A stretch of 31,849 nt of DNA. Source: a virus. Shown here piece after piece: positions 3,327 through 29,693 of this stretch. The DNA lies in the IMG/VR virus record IMGVR_UViG_3300032081_000306, positions 1 to 31,849 of that record; one strand, 5' to 3'. Position 1 is the stretch's first letter. Each line of letters begins with the position of its first letter. Below the pieces are notes generated by a model, which searched no databases, was not told the DNA's origin, and saw only the letters and a program-made list of their open reading frames with translations. Position numbers and translations under genes: made by a program.

Positions 3327-3947
3327 TCAAAATGGTATCTCCCCATCCATGATTGCATTTTTAGATATTCCAATCACGTCTGCATCTGGAAAGTTTTTCT
3401 TTGTTTCAGAGATAAACTGATTAGCATTAAAAAACTGTAAAGCAACTGCGACCTCACGCAATGTGACCAAGTTTAAATCTGGACGCTGCTCTTTCACCGT
3501 CTGCCACGACCTTCCATCGCGCATGATGCCAATCGTCACGCCATCATCGACTTGCACCTCCCAGACATCAGTTGACGCCCTCTGCGCGCCTAACGCCTCC
3601 GCTTCCTTATCCATCGCGACAAGACCTCTCATAGCAATTTCTGCACGCTCGCGCACCATCGCTGGATCGCTATCGTTTATAGCCGCATTCAACTTCGACA
3701 TAGCCGAACCATATTTCATCGCCGTCTCTGCCGAAACCAACTCCGGTAGCATATCAATACCCCACCTCCGATCCATATCCAAAGCCAGCCGATCCAAAGG
3801 AGCCAATGCGTAATCTGCCATAATTGTATTTGGCTCCTGGTCCCCATGAAGCAACCTGTCCGATTTCTTCTGACGAACTGGCCGCCTCGGCTGCTGCGAC
3901 TTCCTCGCCTTCCTTGGCTTCTTCTTATTCACACCACCGATATCCAT
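3327..3947 (-). CDS. Hypothetical protein, 206 aa, basic N-terminus
   Basis: Unknown protein with a strongly basic, probably disordered N-terminus (residues 5-33, rich in Lys/Arg/Gln/Pro) and a mostly helical body. The Ala/Met-rich middle (about 65-120) is followed by a beta-like stretch with VWEVQVDDGVTIGIMRDG. GGAGGA five bases upstream of the ATG is a good ribosome binding site. It is the first gene downstream of the TGTAGAAA array, so its transcription may be affected by whatever binds there. The basic tail could contact nucleic acid; an origin-associated or regulatory role is an inference from position only. Confidence 0.7.
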   Translation of the reverse strand: MDIGGVNKKKPRKARKSQQPRRPVRQKKSDRLLHGDQEPNTIMADYALAPLDRLALDMDRRWGIDMLPELVSAETAMKYGSAMSKLNAAINDSDPAMVRERAEIAMRGLVAMDKEAEALGAQRASTDVWEVQVDDGVTIGIMRDGRSWQTVKEQRPDLNLVTLREVAVALQFFNANQFISETKKNFPDADVIGISKNAIMDGEIPF

Positions 3948-3984: not shown

Positions 3985-4190
3985 TGTAGAAATGTAGAAA
4001 CCCTAAAGGGATTTTCTACATTTTCTACACTTCTAGCCTTCTGTAGAAAAGTGTAGAAAAGTGTAGAAATTGTAGAAAACACAACACCTAAAGCATTGAA
4101 AACAAATAACTTCGTCTTTTCTACACATTTCTACAACCACCCTGGTTTTAGCACTCCAAAAACACCCTTGTAGAAAAAGTTTTTTCTACA
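3985..4190. repeat. Array of 12 TGTAGAAA elements; candidate replication origin or multi-operator
   Basis: The 8-mer TGTAGAAA occurs in the top strand at 3985, 3993, 4042, 4052, 4062, 4071 and 4169. Its complement TTTCTACA occurs at 4013, 4022, 4118, 4128 and 4183. Spacings are close to one DNA helical turn in two clusters (4042/4052/4062 and 4118/4128). The first four copies form a large inverted repeat centred on CCCTAAAGGG (4001-4010). The last pair forms a perfect 10-bp-arm palindrome, TGTAGAAAAA-GT-TTTTTCTACA (4169-4190). The array fills almost the whole 279-base gap between the primase-helicase and the 206-aa gene. Iteron arrays next to initiator or primase genes are typical of replication origins; a cooperative repressor-binding region is the alternative. 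Confidence 0.75.
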
Positions 4191-4226: not shown

Positions 4227-6299
4227 TTAAATTCTGCCTTCCTTGGCTGAAATCCAGCAATATCCATCATTTTGCGACATATATCCGCTCGCTAATAGGC
4301 CGTCCAAAGCCTTTTGGAACGCCGCCCTTGGGTTCGTCCCTCCCAGTTTCCCCTTCGCAAAGCTTGTGAAGTCTTGGACGTCAATCGCCCAATATTTTCC
4401 CACTTCTGGCCATCCTGTACCGCCTGAGTTTGGACTTCCAATAGCGTCTTGGCGCATCTGATTGAACGCTTGTATTAGCGCAACCTGGTTCCTGCCCTTT
4501 GGTTTCTTTTTCTTTGCGTCTTGAACATCTAATGCGTCGGCTGCCTCGATTGTACAGGTCGTTACAGGGTCGCCGTCTGCGTCGCTGCCTAACTCATGCA
4601 CTTTCAGCTGAAATACAATCGGAGGTCGTGGCTCTACATCTCTCTGCTTCGTCGCTGTTGCAGTGCGTAGGCCTTCGCTGTTTTCCAGCTCAATCTCGGT
4701 ATCTGTCGCGGCTCTGAGGCTGCTGTGACCCCTCGCGCCTTGCGCTGTATCCTTGCCAGAATGATGGACGATTGAAGCATGAGACTTTGCAAAATCCCGC
4801 AACGCATCAACATTGTTAATAAAGGCCGTCATATCCTCTGGCCCGTTTTCGTTGCCACCCGCCATCGCTCTTGACAGCGTATCAATAAATATAGCCGCCA
4901 TTTTGCCATGCTCTTGCTCTATTTCTTGGCATAGCTCCGCGATTAGCTTTACATCTGCCTCTGGCCTTAATAAATCAACTGGCGCTGCGCGCACTGCCAG
5001 AGGAACTTTGTCTATCTTGTGCGCTTGCATCAGCGCATAAACTCGGTTTCTGAACGCGTTGCCGCCTTCTGTCGCGAGGTATAGCACTGGCCCTTGTTTG
5101 ACCCTGTAACCCTGCCACGGCATTCCCGCTGCAATGTGGAAAGCTATATCTAACGCGAAAAACGACTTACCAACGTTTGAAGGGCCATAAATTACGCTCA
5201 TTTGCTCCGCACCGAGCCACCCTTTAACTAAATAACTTGACGATAGCACTGGCTGCGCCTCTGCTGCCCAAAATATATTTTTCTTTTTATCGGGCGTTGG
5301 CTCTACCAGCGTGTCCGGCTCAAAGCTGATGCTTTGTATCGCCTGTTGCGGCGTTATTTGCGGCTCCGGCGTCCAGCCCTTTGCCCTCGCCCCATCTATG
5401 GCTTGCTGCACCTCTCTGCGCGTGTCGTCCACAGTGTAGGGAGGCTGCGTAAAATTATCTGTTATGGCGTGGATCTCTGTATCGCCCAAGCCTTTTGCAA
5501 CATACGAGCCCACCAATCTCACGACGTTATGATGCCAATCGTCGCCTGACATAATCGCCTGCTGCGCCATTTCCCTGTCCATAGCTTGCTTGCCAAGGTC
5601 GATGCTGAACGCCGCCTCTTCCACGACTTTCTCAGCTTTTGGGAATGCACGCATCATGCGCTCGAACGGCACTGGGTCACGATCCGTACTGAATTGCGTA
5701 CGCATGGTTACAATTTCGTCTGTGTAACCTTTGGCTTTCTTCTTTTCGCTGGGCCACGACACTGTTCCAGCCACACGCATAATCCGAGACGGATTTATAA
5801 CCACCTCATCTGTCTGAAGGCTCTGTGCAATCGACTGCTGCACCTCACGCCACGCCTGGAGGTTGCGAACTGGCTCTTCCAGCCGCCAATAGCAGTGACC
5901 GCGCACAAATGGCTGCGTGCCTGTCTTTACCGACATCGTGAACTTGGGTCCAGCAAACGACAGTATATTCTGCATTGCTCCATCTGTGTCTGCGTCTGCA
6001 AAATTGAAAAACGCGGCCATGATGTCGTCGTCTTTTGCGCCCTTTCCTACGTCTATATTCTCTCCATCAACAGGGTTTATGCACATATAAACGTTTCGAC
6101 CAGCGCTGTTCATTGCCTCTGCGTGATCTACTGCCTCGTCTATCCAATCAAGTGCAAATCTCGCCACGTTTGGCGCACCATTTTCCTGCAGCGCACGTAA
6201 TTCAATCATTGGGTTGCCGTCTAATTCGTCCCAGCCTTCCGTAATTGTCTCTATAAATTGTTTTATTTCTGTCGGTTGTGCTTCTAATGCTGCCATCAT
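4227..6299 (-). CDS. Primase-helicase (AEP-type primase + RecA-like helicase), 690 aa
   Basis: A two-domain replication protein. The N-terminal half (about 30-220) contains FADADTD at 100-106 and an H-CYWRL segment at 135-139, matching the catalytic acidic and RNA-recognition-fold patterns of RepB-like archaeo-eukaryotic primases. The C-terminal half is a RecA-like AAA_25/RepA helicase with Walker A GPSNVGKS at 372-379, Walker B AAIFIDT at 468-474 and a HHSGKD segment at 512-517. A lysine-rich linker (595-602) leads to a small C-terminal winged-helix-like tail. It would unwind and prime DNA at the phage origin; the nearby array is the likely site. It starts at ATG 6299, overlapping the HTH gene stop by 4 nt. 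No DNA polymerase is found in the window. Confidence 0.88.
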   Translation of the reverse strand: MMAALEAQPTEIKQFIETITEGWDELDGNPMIELRALQENGAPNVARFALDWIDEAVDHAEAMNSAGRNVYMCINPVDGENIDVGKGAKDDDIMAAFFNFADADTDGAMQNILSFAGPKFTMSVKTGTQPFVRGHCYWRLEEPVRNLQAWREVQQSIAQSLQTDEVVINPSRIMRVAGTVSWPSEKKKAKGYTDEIVTMRTQFSTDRDPVPFERMMRAFPKAEKVVEEAAFSIDLGKQAMDREMAQQAIMSGDDWHHNVVRLVGSYVAKGLGDTEIHAITDNFTQPPYTVDDTRREVQQAIDGARAKGWTPEPQITPQQAIQSISFEPDTLVEPTPDKKKNIFWAAEAQPVLSSSYLVKGWLGAEQMSVIYGPSNVGKSFFALDIAFHIAAGMPWQGYRVKQGPVLYLATEGGNAFRNRVYALMQAHKIDKVPLAVRAAPVDLLRPEADVKLIAELCQEIEQEHGKMAAIFIDTLSRAMAGGNENGPEDMTAFINNVDALRDFAKSHASIVHHSGKDTAQGARGHSSLRAATDTEIELENSEGLRTATATKQRDVEPRPPIVFQLKVHELGSDADGDPVTTCTIEAADALDVQDAKKKKPKGRNQVALIQAFNQMRQDAIGSPNSGGTGWPEVGKYWAIDVQDFTSFAKGKLGGTNPRAAFQKALDGLLASGYMSQNDGYCWISAKEGRI

Positions 6300-19660: not shown

Positions 19661-21266
19661 TTTCGTAAGCCTTCAAACGATCTAGAACATTTGGTGCAAT
19701 CACCAAACCGCCGACGCCTGCTTCGGCTACTTCTGGCTCAAGCCGCTTGATTAAAGATTTGTAATCGTCAAGCAAAGGCGAAACCTGTCTAATGCTCTGT
19801 TGAGCCGCTGCCTTATCAGTTGCCGAGAACTTACCGCCGACAACAGCATTTGCTGCTTTTAAAGAGGCCTCAATCATTCGCACTATTTCGTTTGCTTTAT
19901 CTAAAGCCTTACCTTTGCCCGTTGATATTTCTGATGGGGAAATGGTTAAATCTCTTTGTATCATTTCCCTAGTCAAGTTAGACGGGCGACCTGGAAACTC
20001 TGCCGCAAGACCTAGTGAGGTTCTTGTTGCTAAAGAACGAAGAATTGTTGAGGCTTTTGCAATATCATCGGCTGGTTGACCACCCCCGAACGCGTCCATG
20101 ACAGTGTTCATAATGTTAGCACCAAAGCCAGAAATACCAAAAGATCCCGGCACGTTTGCGCCTACGAAGGAGTCTACGGGTTCTTCCGTAACCTCTTCAG
20201 GAGCAACTTCTTCAGTAAGATTACCAGGAGCCATTTTAGCCAAATCAACAACAACAACCTCCCCCGTTATAGGGTCTTTCGATGGTACGAGGCGACGGTC
20301 TGCAATTCCAATTGCTGTGTCTCTAGGAACCCCTGTCGCCATAAGCCTTTGTATCTGCATCTCCTTTGCACTTGCTTCTCCAGGTTTAGCAAAGGCAATC
20401 TTCAAAGCAGATACAGGATCACCACCCGCGTTCAAAAAGGCAATCGCCTGCTCCGACTGAGGCGTACCCATTTTGCTAATAGCCTCCATAGTTTTATTCG
20501 TATCTCGCCTTGCAGCCCGTCTGTTAGCCACAGCCGCCGCTGGTTCATCCAAACCCATTATGCCCATCTTACCAAAAGCGACAGCCAAGTCTGCCAGACG
20601 ATCTTTGAAGGTGTCACGATTGTAGAAGCGCTGACCAGTTTCGCCTTCAGCTCCTTCTTGCATTTTCTGAATGCCAAAATCTGCGAGTAAGCCACGCGGT
20701 CTTTGTTGCTGCATCATTTGGCTATTCTCCTTAATATTTGCATCCGCAAGTCCTGTAATATTTGCATCCGCAAGTCCTATTGGCTGCTTACCAATGGCGC
20801 GCATTGCGTCGTCGGCTACGAGTTGATTGCTGCTGCGACCAGCGTCAGCTTTTCCGAACAAGTGCGAACCAATGCGGGTCCAATCACCGCCCTGCTTTTC
20901 CGCACCCCAAGATGGATTTGATATGTCTGGGTTGTAGAAGTGGGTTGCTCCGCTTGTCGGATCTTTATAATTTCCAGACAAGAGATTGTCGGCAACTTGA
21001 TACGCCTCACGACTTGGAGCCAGGTTTATCATATCCTGACCTTGCGCGCCGCCTGCATAGTTTGTTTCGCTATTCCAGGGAGAAAACTGACCTGGCTTTA
21101 AGATAACGTCTTGAACCCCGCCGCCATAACCTGACGATTTTGCCCTGTTCATTATGACCGATCCAGCAGCAAGCATCCCGCCAACGCCTTGGTTTCCAGC
21201 CTCGGCCTGTAGCGTCTTAGCTAGTATGTCTCGGTCTGATAAACCTAAACGCTCCTTGAGTGTCAT
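19653..21266 (-). CDS. Virion-associated SleB-type cell-wall hydrolase, 537 aa
   Basis: The first 140 residues form a Hydrolase_2 (SleB) domain: ILAKTLQAEAGNQGVGGMLAA with the catalytic Glu at 22, SVIMNRA, DVILKPGQFSPWN, and the C-terminal DPTSGATHFYNP...WG motif. It would cut glycan strands when the virion enters the cell. The rest (about 150-537) is a Gln/Ala-rich helical region with Pro-rich parts, probably the structural part. Within it an 8-residue unit is tandemly repeated (GLADANIT, then GLADANIK). It starts in the stop of the S74 protein gene (TGATG) and is followed by the ejection protein. Confidence 0.82.
   Translation of the reverse strand: MTLKERLGLSDRDILAKTLQAEAGNQGVGGMLAAGSVIMNRAKSSGYGGGVQDVILKPGQFSPWNSETNYAGGAQGQDMINLAPSREAYQVADNLLSGNYKDPTSGATHFYNPDISNPSWGAEKQGGDWTRIGSHLFGKADAGRSSNQLVADDAMRAIGKQPIGLADANITGLADANIKENSQMMQQQRPRGLLADFGIQKMQEGAEGETGQRFYNRDTFKDRLADLAVAFGKMGIMGLDEPAAAVANRRAARRDTNKTMEAISKMGTPQSEQAIAFLNAGGDPVSALKIAFAKPGEASAKEMQIQRLMATGVPRDTAIGIADRRLVPSKDPITGEVVVVDLAKMAPGNLTEEVAPEEVTEEPVDSFVGANVPGSFGISGFGANIMNTVMDAFGGGQPADDIAKASTILRSLATRTSLGLAAEFPGRPSNLTREMIQRDLTISPSEISTGKGKALDKANEIVRMIEASLKAANAVVGGKFSATDKAAAQQSIRQVSPLLDDYKSLIKRLEPEVAEAGVGGLVIAPNVLDRLKAYENE
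20732..20778 (-). repeat. Tandem 24-bp unit inside the SleB gene
   Basis: Two copies of a 23-bp sequence (20732-20754 and 20756-20778, offset 24 bp) are identical and encode the back-to-back octapeptides GLADANIT and GLADANIK in the linker after the SleB domain. The unit is in frame and looks like a recent slippage duplication. Confidence 0.9.
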
Positions 21267-22765
21267 CAGGCTGCTCCCAACTCCGAAACTAACCCAGCGT
21301 AATTAACGCGGAGGTATCCATCATCAGCCCGTGAAACCAAGTGCGGATGCGTCGCTTGAAGCTCTTGAGCCATGACGCCGATTGTTGGTTGTGCTGGATC
21401 TGCGACCCGCTTACCTTCGTCGTTCCAATCCCATGAGTAGACGTTGATGCCTGCCTCTTTGCCGAGCGGCTTGATGTTGGTCTTGAGGCGTTCGTCTGAC
21501 ATGCCGATAGCAGTTGCGCCGAGAGAGAGATAATCAAACAGGCCAGGTTGCCTAGACGATGTACGTGTCTCTGGAACTGGCGTAACTCCAAGAGCCGCGA
21601 GTGGCGCTTGAAGCGCGGCATTTGGTGCGCCTGCGTAGCCTGCGAACTGACCGCGAGCAGCGTCGATAAGAGCCTGCTGTAAACCTTGCTGCAACAAGCC
21701 TTGCTGCATTTGCTGCTGCTGGATTGATTGACCAGTGCTAAATGCCTGCTGCCCCAACGAACCCATTTGCTGCGCGGCAGACATGCGTGCTTGATTTGCG
21801 GCAAGTTGGTTCGCAAAGTTTTGCTGCTGCGCCTGCTGCGCTGCTGTTGCGCCATACTGAGCGGCGGCTGTACGTGCGCCGACGTTAGAGGCTTCCATCT
21901 GCTGCAACCTAGCAAGGTTAGCAGCTTGAGCTGCTTGAGCAGAACCAGCGCCATACTGAGCGGCTGCTGTGCGTGCAGCGGCGTTGGCTGCTTCGACGGC
22001 AGAGCGTTGGCCGACATCAAATTGTGCGGCCTGTTGTGCTTGTTGAAAGCCAGACTGTCGCAAGTTTGCAACAGTGTCAGCCGCTTGCTTGGAGAAGCCT
22101 TTTCGCGTCTCAGCGGCTTCTAACGCTTGGCGAGATCCGCCGAATGCGTTGGCTGCTTCTGCTTGCGCGCCCATGACGTTTAACTGTTTCTCTTGCGCGC
22201 CAGCTAAATCTGAAAGCGTGCGGTCAATCACCGCTTGCTGATATGGGCTTTCATATTGTGCAATGTTTGTTGATGCCAACTGCTGCGCCCGTTGCTGGGC
22301 TGGGCCGTATCCAAATCCTTGCTGCATACCGGCTGAACGCTGTTGCGCTGGGGTGTACCCAATCGCTGAAACTGGCGGGGCTTGGAAGCCCATACCCATT
22401 TGCGTGCCTTGCATAGCTTGCTGCAATGCGCCTGCGCTTGCTTGATTTACGTTGAACCCACCAGAGGGCGATAGAGGTGCGTAGCGACCTTGCATTGGGG
22501 CTGGCATTGCAGTCTGCGGTCTAGACATGCCACCTTTGCCGCCAAACATAGGCGGGGTAAAGCTACCTTGTGGACCGCCTAATGAGACGTCGTCAGGCGT
22601 CCTTTTAGGCAGAGGAGGTGGATTTCCAAACCCAAGTGCAGTTATGGGACGAGATACTGGAATGAGGCTACCTTGTGGACCGCCTAATGAGACGTCGTCA
22701 GGCGTCCTTTTAGGCAGAGGAGGTGGATTTCCAAACCCAAGTGCAGTTATGGGACGACTAGCCAT
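21266..22765 (-). CDS. Structural protein with C-terminal S74 chaperone domain, 499 aa
   Basis: N-terminal Pro/Gly-rich region with two identical copies of a 30-residue block (RPITALGFGNPPPLPKR and onward), then a long Gln/Ala-rich coiled-coil-like part (about 130-390). The C-terminal domain is a peptidase S74 intramolecular chaperone: SDERLKT (Ser423, Lys428) and GVMAQELQATHPHLV...Y-L...VNYAGL. S74 domains trimerise, help fibre folding and cleave themselves off before the Ser of the S-D-x-R-L-K motif. The whole protein is probably a virion fibre or an internal protein, since the Gln/Ala-rich part is not the usual beta-fibre. Its start is one base from the stop of the upstream 386-aa gene. 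Confidence 0.75.
   Translation of the reverse strand: MASRPITALGFGNPPPLPKRTPDDVSLGGPQGSLIPVSRPITALGFGNPPPLPKRTPDDVSLGGPQGSFTPPMFGGKGGMSRPQTAMPAPMQGRYAPLSPSGGFNVNQASAGALQQAMQGTQMGMGFQAPPVSAIGYTPAQQRSAGMQQGFGYGPAQQRAQQLASTNIAQYESPYQQAVIDRTLSDLAGAQEKQLNVMGAQAEAANAFGGSRQALEAAETRKGFSKQAADTVANLRQSGFQQAQQAAQFDVGQRSAVEAANAAARTAAAQYGAGSAQAAQAANLARLQQMEASNVGARTAAAQYGATAAQQAQQQNFANQLAANQARMSAAQQMGSLGQQAFSTGQSIQQQQMQQGLLQQGLQQALIDAARGQFAGYAGAPNAALQAPLAALGVTPVPETRTSSRQPGLFDYLSLGATAIGMSDERLKTNIKPLGKEAGINVYSWDWNDEGKRVADPAQPTIGVMAQELQATHPHLVSRADDGYLRVNYAGLVSELGAA
22562..22757 (-). repeat. Perfect 91-bp direct repeat (offset 105 bp) at the start of the S74 structural gene
   Basis: Positions 22562-22652 and 22667-22757 are identical over 91 bases and lie 105 bases apart (35 codons), giving two copies of the block RPITALGFGNPPPLPKR-TPDDVSLGGPQGS. 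The reading frame is kept. The absence of any mismatch points to a very recent duplication or active homogenisation. Confidence 0.95.
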
Positions 22766-26766: not shown

Positions 26767-27948
26767 TTATTCTTCTAACGCTGTTAGTCGTGTTTCAAGA
26801 CTGTCGATTTTCGTTAGTGCCTCTTGCAGCGCAGCCGTGAGTAATGGGACGAGTTTAGCCTGATCGATGCCTTGCATTACTGCATTGCCATCATCATCAA
26901 CCTCATCCTTTGTGCCTGTGACTGACTCTGGTACGACTGTCGCTGCTTCATGTGCGAGAAAACCATCGACACGATCACCTGATGCAATCCACTCAAAATT
27001 AACTGGGTTTAACGCTTGGACACGAGCAGATGCGCCTGTCATTGGCTGTACGTCTGTTTTTAGGCGATAGTCGGATGAGGTGTTGTAGGCTGTAGTAGAA
27101 CCAGAAACTGAAATGGTTCCTACCGCGACGGAGTCGTTGTAAAACTCCACTACAGTTCCATCAGTGCCGAGCCTGTTTAATAACAAGACAGTGGAGCTGT
27201 TACGCACAAAATAAACCCGTCCGTCTGGATTCATGTGGATCCCTGCAGCGTTGTTGGAGGCTGTTTTACCGATAAATACACTACCGCTTTCAGTTATCCT
27301 GACCGCCTCGGTTAAAGTGCCAGAGGATGAAGCATTTGTGTTAAAGGTAATTTCACCACCACCACCAGTACCTGCGTATAAAACCTCAATACTTGCAGCA
27401 ATTCCGGGCGTAACGTCATTAGTATAGAACTCTATGCCGCCTGCCTGATTGTCCGCAGTTGCAGTGGTGTCAGTGTCAGTAATGCGAATGTAATTCGCCT
27501 TTGCACCAGCGTTGTTATTCCCCGAAGTTTCTAATTTGCCTGCAATATCGACCCCTGTGCTAGTAGTCTCAAACTTCTTGGCGTTGTCATAATACAGTTC
27601 AACAGCACCGTTGCTTATAAAAGTGGCTTTCAACTCTGAAGTTGCTTGATCGGTGATGTTTACGTTCGCATCACTGGCAATAAACAGGTTTCCAGTTCCT
27701 GTCTCTTGAATGTAACTATTAGACGCATCATGATATAGCTGGAGATCTGAACCAGCCCCGAATATGGCTTTGTTGTTATCGCCGAATGTGACGTTGCCGC
27801 CTAACGTCAGTCCAGTAATAGAAGTTGTGCCGTCAAGAATATCGTCAATACTATCTAAGTTGGTATTGATCTTTGTACCCCAAGTGTCCTCAGATGCACC
27901 GACTTCTGGCTTAGTCAAGCCATACGTTGTTGTAGTTGTATCAGCCAT
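26767..27948 (-). CDS. Tail fibre with C-terminal S74 chaperone domain, 393 aa
   Basis: N-terminal region ([23 protein letters not shown]...) is the adaptor type of phage tail fibres. The middle (about 55-285) is Asn/Gly/Thr-rich with many short beta strands. The C-terminus is a peptidase S74 domain: SDYRLKTDV (Ser292, Lys297), [11 protein letters not shown] and a coiled coil ending [10 protein letters not shown]. The S74 domain trimerises the fibre and is then removed by autocleavage before Ser292. The fibre is the likely host-receptor protein. AGGAG precedes the ATG. The gene order fibre, DUF6447-like protein, tail-hub is consistent with tail assembly. Confidence 0.85.
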
Positions 27949-27973
27949 GTTTTTCTCCTATGCGGCGATAGCC

Positions 27974-28693
27974 TTATGCGGCGTCGGCCCAAGTTTCACT
28001 TGTCGCCGAGGCTGGTGTCCAGTCTGAATTGTCAGGGGAGGTTGCAGACCAGCTTTCGGCTGCTTCTGGCGCATCTTGCCATATTTCGTCTGTCGGCGCA
28101 ACCTCAGACCATGTTTCTGATGTCGGCGGAAGAAGCTCCCACTTCTCAATTCCATTACAGGTAATGCTACAAACAGGGCTAATTAAAGCGCTGCTAGGTC
28201 TAACTCGATTACATACAGCCGAAACGCTTGAAGCGCACGCAATGTTAGAACCGCTCTCATAAACTACTGATGCGCTGGCTGCTACAGAGCAAGTTGGGTT
28301 GGCAGTGGCAGCGCCTTCACGCACACGTTTTGCGGCTGCTGCACCAGTTGCGGCAGGGGAAGCAGCGGCGGCTCCCTCACGCACACGCAGACCAGCGGCA
28401 GATACAGATGCGCTTGCGGCTAAAGTAGCAGAGGCATCCTTGACGACATTCGCGCTGCACGTAACGCTAGACGACGCGGCGGAGGTGGCAGAACCTTCCC
28501 TGACACGCAGAGCCTCAGATGTTGTGCTAGAGGCAGTCACAACAATAGACGCCGACAGCCTTACCCTAACGTAAGCTGCCGCCGTTGTTGATACTGTAAC
28601 GACAGTGCCAGCGCCATCTGTGACAAAACCATCTAGCCCGTAGTTGTACGAGCCATATGTGCTTTTGCCATAGCCTGAGCGGTACTCAGCCAT
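27974..28693 (-). CDS. Fibre-like protein of exact 20-residue and 10-residue repeats, 239 aa
   Basis: An unusual, fully periodic protein. Residues 1-40 are Gly/Tyr/Thr-rich. Residues 41-180 are seven units of exactly 20 residues, each opening with a strand like [x]RVRE (RVRL at 43, RVRE at 63, VVKD at 83, RVRE at 103, RVRE at 123, VVYE at 143, RVRP at 163), then Ala/Ser/Thr-rich filler. Residues 181-239 are six units of exactly 10 residues with Trp at 185, 195, 205, 215, 225 and 235, mostly in a T-S-E-T-W context. No domain name is known to me. It lies between fibre genes, so it is probably a fibre shaft or attachment segment; the Trp part could bind a glycan or another virion protein. Confidence 0.7.
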   Translation of the reverse strand: MAEYRSGYGKSTYGSYNYGLDGFVTDGAGTVVTVSTTAAAYVRVRLSASIVVTASSTTSEALRVREGSATSAASSSVTCSANVVKDASATLAASASVSAAGLRVREGAAAASPAATGAAAAKRVREGAATANPTCSVAASASVVYESGSNIACASSVSAVCNRVRPSSALISPVCSITCNGIEKWELLPPTSETWSEVAPTDEIWQDAPEAAESWSATSPDNSDWTPASATSETWADAA

Positions 28694-29073
28694 TAGTCTA
28701 GCGTAATATCAAGATCACCAGCAGGAACGCGGAAGACGTCGCCTGTATCAATGGTTTTGCTTGTAGTCAGCGCAGCATATGAAATTAAGTTGCCGCCAGA
28801 TGATGCGTCGAAAACACCTACGTGGCTGACAGTGCCGTAACCAGCCGTGGCTGTCGGGTACTCAATTGCACCAGAGTTTGATGCAGTGTTGCCACTTACT
28901 GTAAATGTAACAGCCTGGCGCGCATATGCACCGCCGCTGACTTCAGTGCCAGAAGCATCTTCTGCTGGGTTGCTGGTAAACAACGCTAAGTGCCAAGCTG
29001 TTGGCCGTGTAGCGGAACCAGTTGTAAATGCCCAAGTGAGGACAGTTGTCTCAAAAGCATTTGAAAAACTCAT
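28693..29073 (-). CDS. Tail/decoration protein, 126 aa
   Basis: A beta-rich protein whose sequence (SNAFETTVLTWAFTT..., ...HLALFTSNPAEDASGTEVSGGAYARQAVTFTVSG..., ...FRVPAGDLDITLD) follows a common family of small phage proteins annotated as tail fibre or tail-associated. The ALFTSNP-x-E-x-x-x-G-x-EV-x-GG-x-YARQ-V-F motif is its hallmark. It probably forms a decoration or tip structure with the neighbouring fibre proteins. Its stop is at the start of the repeat protein (shared base at 28693). Confidence 0.75.
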   Translation of the reverse strand: MSFSNAFETTVLTWAFTTGSATRPTAWHLALFTSNPAEDASGTEVSGGAYARQAVTFTVSGNTASNSGAIEYPTATAGYGTVSHVGVFDASSGGNLISYAALTTSKTIDTGDVFRVPAGDLDITLD

Positions 29074-29693
29074 CAGTAACTCCTAATTTTCATGCGACGG
29101 CCTGATCCGCCATATTTAGCCTTATCACTGTCAGCGTTTATAGCATCAATCGCCACCTGATACAAAGACGCCCAAACTTGCAGCCTAGCGTCGTCTTTTA
29201 AGTAAGGCGCAGAATGCACTAACGAGCCGTACAAGTAAGCGTCTGGGAAATACTGCAACATCCAGTTTGAGGCGTTGCTGTCACTCAAAGCCTCAATACG
29301 ACTGTAATAATATAATTCAACATCATACACGCCATCAGGTACTGGCAAGACTTCAATCTCACCAGCGGTCAGGGCGTAGTATGCTGGCTTGCCGCTAGTG
29401 TTTAAGTTGACGCGCTTTCGGTCAAGTAATTGATATTGACTGATTTTTTCCATCGGGCTTGTGTCGCTCGACGTAATGTAGAACCGAATGTCCTCGACAA
29501 AGTCGGCGGGTATTGCGCTGTACTGTGTGTCAAGTTGCGCTGTACTGCGCTTCTCTTGACGCCAGTGGCGCACCTGTCTCTGCATGTCAGCCTCGGCTAA
29601 CGAAATGAACGTCGGCGCGACTGACGTAAGGTCGTCGCGGTTGAGAAAGTCAGCAACGCTAGACTTTAGCTCTGTGTAAGTTGTTATTGCCAT
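29073..29693 (-). CDS. Head-to-tail adaptor protein, 206 aa
   Basis: Typical phage adaptor: TTYTELKSSVADFLNRDDL (about 4-22), FISLAEADMQRQVRHWRQE (29-47), a beta-rich middle (VLPVPDGVYDVELYYYSRIEAL) and the C-terminal AYLYGSLVHSAPYLKDDARLQVW helix pair. Podovirus proteins with this layout attach to the portal and receive the tail hub (P22 gp4-like role). It shares one base with the tail-decoration gene and is one base from the preceding gene's stop. Confidence 0.8.
   Translation of the reverse strand: MAITTYTELKSSVADFLNRDDLTSVAPTFISLAEADMQRQVRHWRQEKRSTAQLDTQYSAIPADFVEDIRFYITSSDTSPMEKISQYQLLDRKRVNLNTSGKPAYYALTAGEIEVLPVPDGVYDVELYYYSRIEALSDSNASNWMLQYFPDAYLYGSLVHSAPYLKDDARLQVWASLYQVAIDAINADSDKAKYGGSGRRMKIRSY

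Follow-up and report, generated by a model that had tools for sequence, protein, structure and literature searches.

A 20-residue repeat protein encoded beside the GP4-type fibre I subunit gene in short-tailed phages is a candidate fibre rope

Background

In fibre I of the Ralstonia podophage GP4, an elongated rope protein reportedly joins five gp80 dimers. The PDB entry for this fibre, 8jou, contains 10 Gp80 chains, and the subunit family is named "Podophage GP4 fiber I protein gp80" in Pfam (PF23140). A search of the accessible literature returned no paper on the rope, and a sequence search of the PDB found no rope chain. In GP4-like genomes (L254 and L255), the gene after Gp80 encodes a 20-residue repeat protein; the L254 Gp80 is 140 amino acids long, like 8jou_a, and is identical to it over the 74 residues compared. 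Given these regular repeats and the reported rope, the gene after Gp80 is the natural candidate for the GP4 rope, and we infer that it encodes the rope in GP4-like genomes.

Three other described proteins are comparable. Proteins of PHROG 19041 (Bcep22 gp61 / BcepIL02 gp56 type) lie after Gp80 and have a main period of 20 residues. Sinorhizobium phage phiM5 gp18 occupies the same position and combines a Tyr/Gly N-terminus with Trp residues spaced by 10; the gene that follows encodes a fibre. Octadecabacter Antarctic DB virus 2 gp11 (L040:7065-8591) ends in a tail with Trp at every tenth residue, and its ribonuclease E annotation looks wrong.

This study examined a 31,849-nucleotide stretch of DNA from a marine phage (the window; IMG/VR virus record IMGVR_UViG_3300032081_000306, positions 1 to 31,849), in which a repeat gene directly follows a gene of the GP4 fibre I subunit family. 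Repeat proteins of the Burkholderia (GP4-like) family show no significant sequence similarity to those of the window family. The GP4-like protein has approximately 11 units, an ALN..PINGW-type N-terminus and a different C-terminal domain; in the window protein, 7-8 units are flanked by a Tyr/Gly N-terminus and a Trp tail. An hhalign comparison of the two families was not significant (E 0.3, with one profile of six members and low Neff, so that distant homology is possible); the link between them therefore rests on position, period and architecture. The window protein likewise does not match the PHROG 19041 profile. With phiM5, the resemblance extends to the following fibre, which shares an N-terminal motif with the next fibre of the window, but gp18 is shorter (198 aa) with a weaker 20-residue period (z 3.2). 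In DB virus 2, by contrast, the Trp tail is joined to 22-residue repeats and is encoded three genes after Gp80.

The repeat gene and its product

The translation confirms the 239-residue open reading frame that the sequence-only reading of the window had proposed, and places it on the minus strand; the plus-strand frame over the same interval is interrupted by stops. As that reading had suggested, the gene sits among tail genes, with the fibre I subunit family upstream and an S74 tail fibre downstream, in the order adaptor, Gp80, repeat gene, tail fibre (Table 1). The TAA of Gp80 and the ATG of the repeat gene share one base (TAATG), such that the repeat gene starts inside the Gp80 stop codon. 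The window also encodes a portal, a scaffold, a major head protein and an ejection protein, which together form a short-tailed-phage structural module. Judged by the adaptor and Gp80, the cultured phage closest to it is Octadecabacter DB virus 2, at 57-61% identity.

Table 1. Coordinates of the repeat gene, the segments of its product and the neighbouring tail genes in the window
Feature	Position	Strand	Evidence
Repeat-protein CDS, 239 aa, candidate fibre I rope	27974..28693	minus	ORF and translation, IMG/VR homologues, dN/dS
Residues 1-22, Tyr/Gly-rich N-terminus, nearly invariant, candidate anchor	28628..28693	minus	Pairwise identity
Residues 23-42, degenerate 20-residue unit	28568..28627	minus	Phase with other units; aligns with canonical L043-family unit
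Residues 43-182, seven 20-residue units	28148..28567	minus	Autocorrelation; indel pattern
Residues 183-239, Trp tail with 10-residue spacing, six units here and four in some relatives	27977..28147	minus	
Gp80 family gene, GP4 fibre I subunit, 126 aa	28693..29073	minus	PF23140 E 3.4e-39; PDB 8jou_a E 1.1e-8
Tail adaptor, SU10 adaptor / tail tubular A family	29073..29693	minus	PF24175 E 4.5e-34; PDB 7z47_A
Tail fibre, C-terminal S74 chaperone; N-terminus conserved, rest variable	26767..27948	minus	PF13884 E 2.3e-8; PHROG tail-fibre families

Reading the translation reproduced the unit starts (residues 43, 63, 83, 103, 123, 143 and 163) and the Trp positions (185, 195, 205, 215, 225 and 235) that had been described, and the spacing is free of insertions throughout. 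The BLOSUM autocorrelation of residues 23-182 peaks at 20, and none of 2000 shuffles matched that peak at any lag; for residues 183-239 the peaks at 10, 20 and 30 were likewise reached in 0 of 2000 shuffles. The repeats had been called exact, which holds for their spacing but not for their sequence, as the seven 20-mers share a mean identity of 33% and the Trp units one of 31%. Additionally, two of the seven strands described as RVRE-like read VVKD (83) and VVYE (143), and the count of seven 20-residue repeats is correct for residues 43-182 but omits the degenerate eighth unit ahead of them. Tandem Repeats Finder detected no array in the DNA at the repeat gene, and a recent duplication was therefore rejected as the origin of the 20-residue period.

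Searches of Pfam, PHROG and NCBIfam with the repeat protein returned no family, in agreement with the earlier reading, which knew of no named domain for either repeat, and neither did Pfam and PHROG searches with 62 aligned members. For the window protein, AlphaFold gave an uninterpretable model (16-sequence alignment, pLDDT 31); that of the L076 protein (69-sequence alignment, pLDDT 45) was also poor, with two predicted beta strands per 20-mer. The strand-turn pattern suggested earlier for the 20-mers thus finds a counterpart in the L076 model, but, because both models are poor, the further reading of a beta-solenoid or fibre shaft remains a guess. Foldseek with the L076 model gave weak matches to uncharacterised phage proteins and meaningless matches in the PDB.

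A short direct repeat, CGCCGCATA(A)GG, was observed at window 27951-27985, around the end of the repeat gene and before the start codon of the fibre gene; it is also found in relatives such as L024, at times with a third, diverged copy.

Association with Gp80 across phages

Relatives of the window type in IMG/VR numbered 38 at first and then 164, and two further types were recovered, one related to a spring phage (119 relatives) and one related to phage C72C1 (60 relatives). The upstream gene was readable in 212 homologous loci and Gp80-like in every one (78/78, 77/77 and 57/57 for the three families). The repeat family is real, widely conserved and unnamed, and its genes are strongly linked to those of the fibre I subunit. 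This link is the most informative fact about the gene; it lies outside the coordinates covered by the sequence-only reading and was absent from it. Among cultured phages, tblastn with the window protein and with L076 found no match, the L111 query matched two records, and phiM5 gp18 used as an IMG/VR query found no relatives.

As an independent test, phage records were picked by Gp80 alone rather than by the repeat protein, and the gene after Gp80 was scored for a 20-residue period (called at z >= 4). The next gene was periodic in 10 of 26 loci, compared with 1 of 169 other nearby genes (Fisher 3e-9); when four Lessieviruses are counted once, the figure is 8 of 23. The sole periodic background gene (ctvy9321) is displaced by two genes and encodes a Gly/Tyr segment, repeats of roughly 21 residues and a Trp tail. 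A periodic next gene is missing from other Gp80 phages, including myophage-type loci with baseplate J genes and a Caulobacter phage.

Unit number differs between these proteins. In L254, the 325-aa protein encoded after Gp80 has approximately 11 units of 19-21 residues past its N-terminal segment (split by hand), which against the 10 Gp80 chains in 8jou is close to one unit per subunit. Fewer units are found in Bcep22-like phages, and the longest proteins seen (476 aa, in L266, L267 and L268) have approximately 21 units as estimated from length.

A different Trp spacing was observed in Roseobacter phages CRP-4 and CRP-5 and Methylophilales phage MEP402 (L042, L044 and L045), where the protein encoded after Gp80 has C-terminal Trp repeats (e.g., YVK..GAWK) spaced 13-15 residues apart instead of 10.

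Divergence along the locus

The 20-residue period is kept in those window-type homologues that were read, and no indel was found in the 20-residue block across 13 representative relatives. Aligned with the second type (the L043 family), the window type differs in its repeat block by exactly one whole 20-residue unit. The Trp spacing is 10 in both types, and most members have either 6 or 4 of these residues. In four relatives with 4 Trp units rather than 6 (L003, L004, L026 and L031), an apparently non-coding stretch precedes the fibre gene, as might follow from a shortening of the Trp tail.

Conservation varies sharply along the locus. Median pairwise identity in the window and L043 families, respectively, is 0.90 and 1.00 for the N-terminal segment, 0.83 and 0.84 for the conserved Gp80, and 0.48 and 0.46 for the 20-mers, with the Trp tail intermediate at 0.55; the following tail fibre beyond residue 40 is the least conserved part (0.35 and 0.26). 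The repeat gene is under purifying selection, the Trp tail included, with dN/dS of 0.13-0.23 in the 20-mers and 0-0.30 in the tail for estimable pairs (a single, highly diverged pair gave 0.40). The divergence seen in the 20-mers follows that of Gp80 (Spearman 0.80 and 0.64 in the two families) and not that of the exchanged tip of the adjacent fibre (0.18 and 0.13), as would be expected of partners, although linkage contributes and may partly explain the correlation.

These patterns bear on whether the protein forms a tail fibre or spike of its own, with a trimeric or solenoid beta shaft of 20-mers and a Trp-rich tip touching the host. The location among fibre genes, the strand-turn-strand pattern of the low-confidence model and the presence of several fibre types in GP4-like phages would all suit such a shaft. 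Nevertheless, the purifying selection extends into the Trp tail, and this tail is not swapped as the neighbouring fibre tip is; neither identity comparisons nor dN/dS revealed an exchangeable or fast-evolving receptor-binding tip in the repeat protein. No solved shaft was matched by PDB sequence search or by the fold search with its poor model, and the constant pairing with Gp80 would be left unexplained. We therefore consider an independent shaft unlikely, and the host-contact role put forward in the sequence-only reading is not borne out, since the 20-mers diverge with Gp80 rather than with the fibre tip and evolve under purifying selection.

Virion evidence

Two proteins in the same position after Gp80, BcepIL02 gp56 and BcepMigl gp57, are annotated as virion-associated, and PHROG 19041, which is matched by the Burkholderia and Itty13 proteins though not by the window protein, is named virion structural protein. 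These annotations argue against an assembly factor or chaperone that serves Gp80 or the next fibre and is not retained in the virion, a role that would also have no obvious need for whole-unit repeats. For such a factor speak the overlap of the repeat-gene start codon with the Gp80 stop codon and two non-detections: JC1 gp54 is missing from the JC1 virion protein list, though the adjacent Gp80 was detected, and in phiM5 the "detected" note is given for the neighbours of gp18, Gp80 included, but not for gp18 itself. The non-detections could reflect either a low copy number relative to Gp80 (10-to-1) or absence from the virion, which would also weigh against the rope role proposed below, and on balance a chaperone appears quite improbable.

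Least credible is a disordered low-complexity linker with a structurally meaningless period, which the AlphaFold pLDDT of 31-45 and the Ala-, Ser- and Thr-rich composition would fit, but which is at odds with an exact period that survives drift to approximately 48% identity and recurs in very distant phages, an indel of one whole unit and a dN/dS near 0.2.

Proposed role

The recurrence of the Gp80 pairing across distantly related short-tailed phages suggests that the repeat protein is a string holding the threaded fibre subunits. On the combined evidence, the balance tips towards the repeat protein being the elongated scaffold, or rope, of a GP4-type side fibre in a short-tailed phage; this role is unproven but more likely than any one of the alternatives. 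In the rope model, the near-invariant Tyr/Gly N-terminus would fix the rope to the virion, and each 20-residue unit, probably a beta strand-turn-strand, would present an equivalent docking site for one Gp80, such that Gp80 subunits would be evenly spaced along the rope. The number of units may then set fibre length, and the Trp tail may act as a separate end module, serving as a tether, cap or contact.

A broader and more tentative possibility is that these proteins belong to an unnamed, widespread class of phage ropes that measure fibre length. Each 20-residue unit would carry one Gp80, gain or loss of whole units (approximately 7-8 in the window, 11 in GP4-like phages and 21 in L266) would set the number of subunits, and the sequence would drift freely around the fixed period.

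If the rope reading is correct, it would provide a gene and a sequence signature for the rope of GP4-type fibres, together with a countable rule relating repeats to subunits. It would also imply that chain-like Gp80 side fibres are common among short-tailed phages of sea and soil. Many annotations that are wrong or read "hypothetical", such as ribonuclease E in DB virus 2, could then be replaced.

Additional features of the window

Two features elsewhere in the window were noted. The ejection-protein-like ORF at 21266-22765 contains a perfect tandem duplication (window 22562-22757; 105-bp unit, 1.9 copies, 100% match), which would repeat approximately 35 residues in frame. Additionally, copies of TGTAGAAA(AG) and of its reverse complement are clustered at window 3985-4079, between the ORFs at 3327-3947 and 4227-6299, where they possibly mark a regulatory or origin region.
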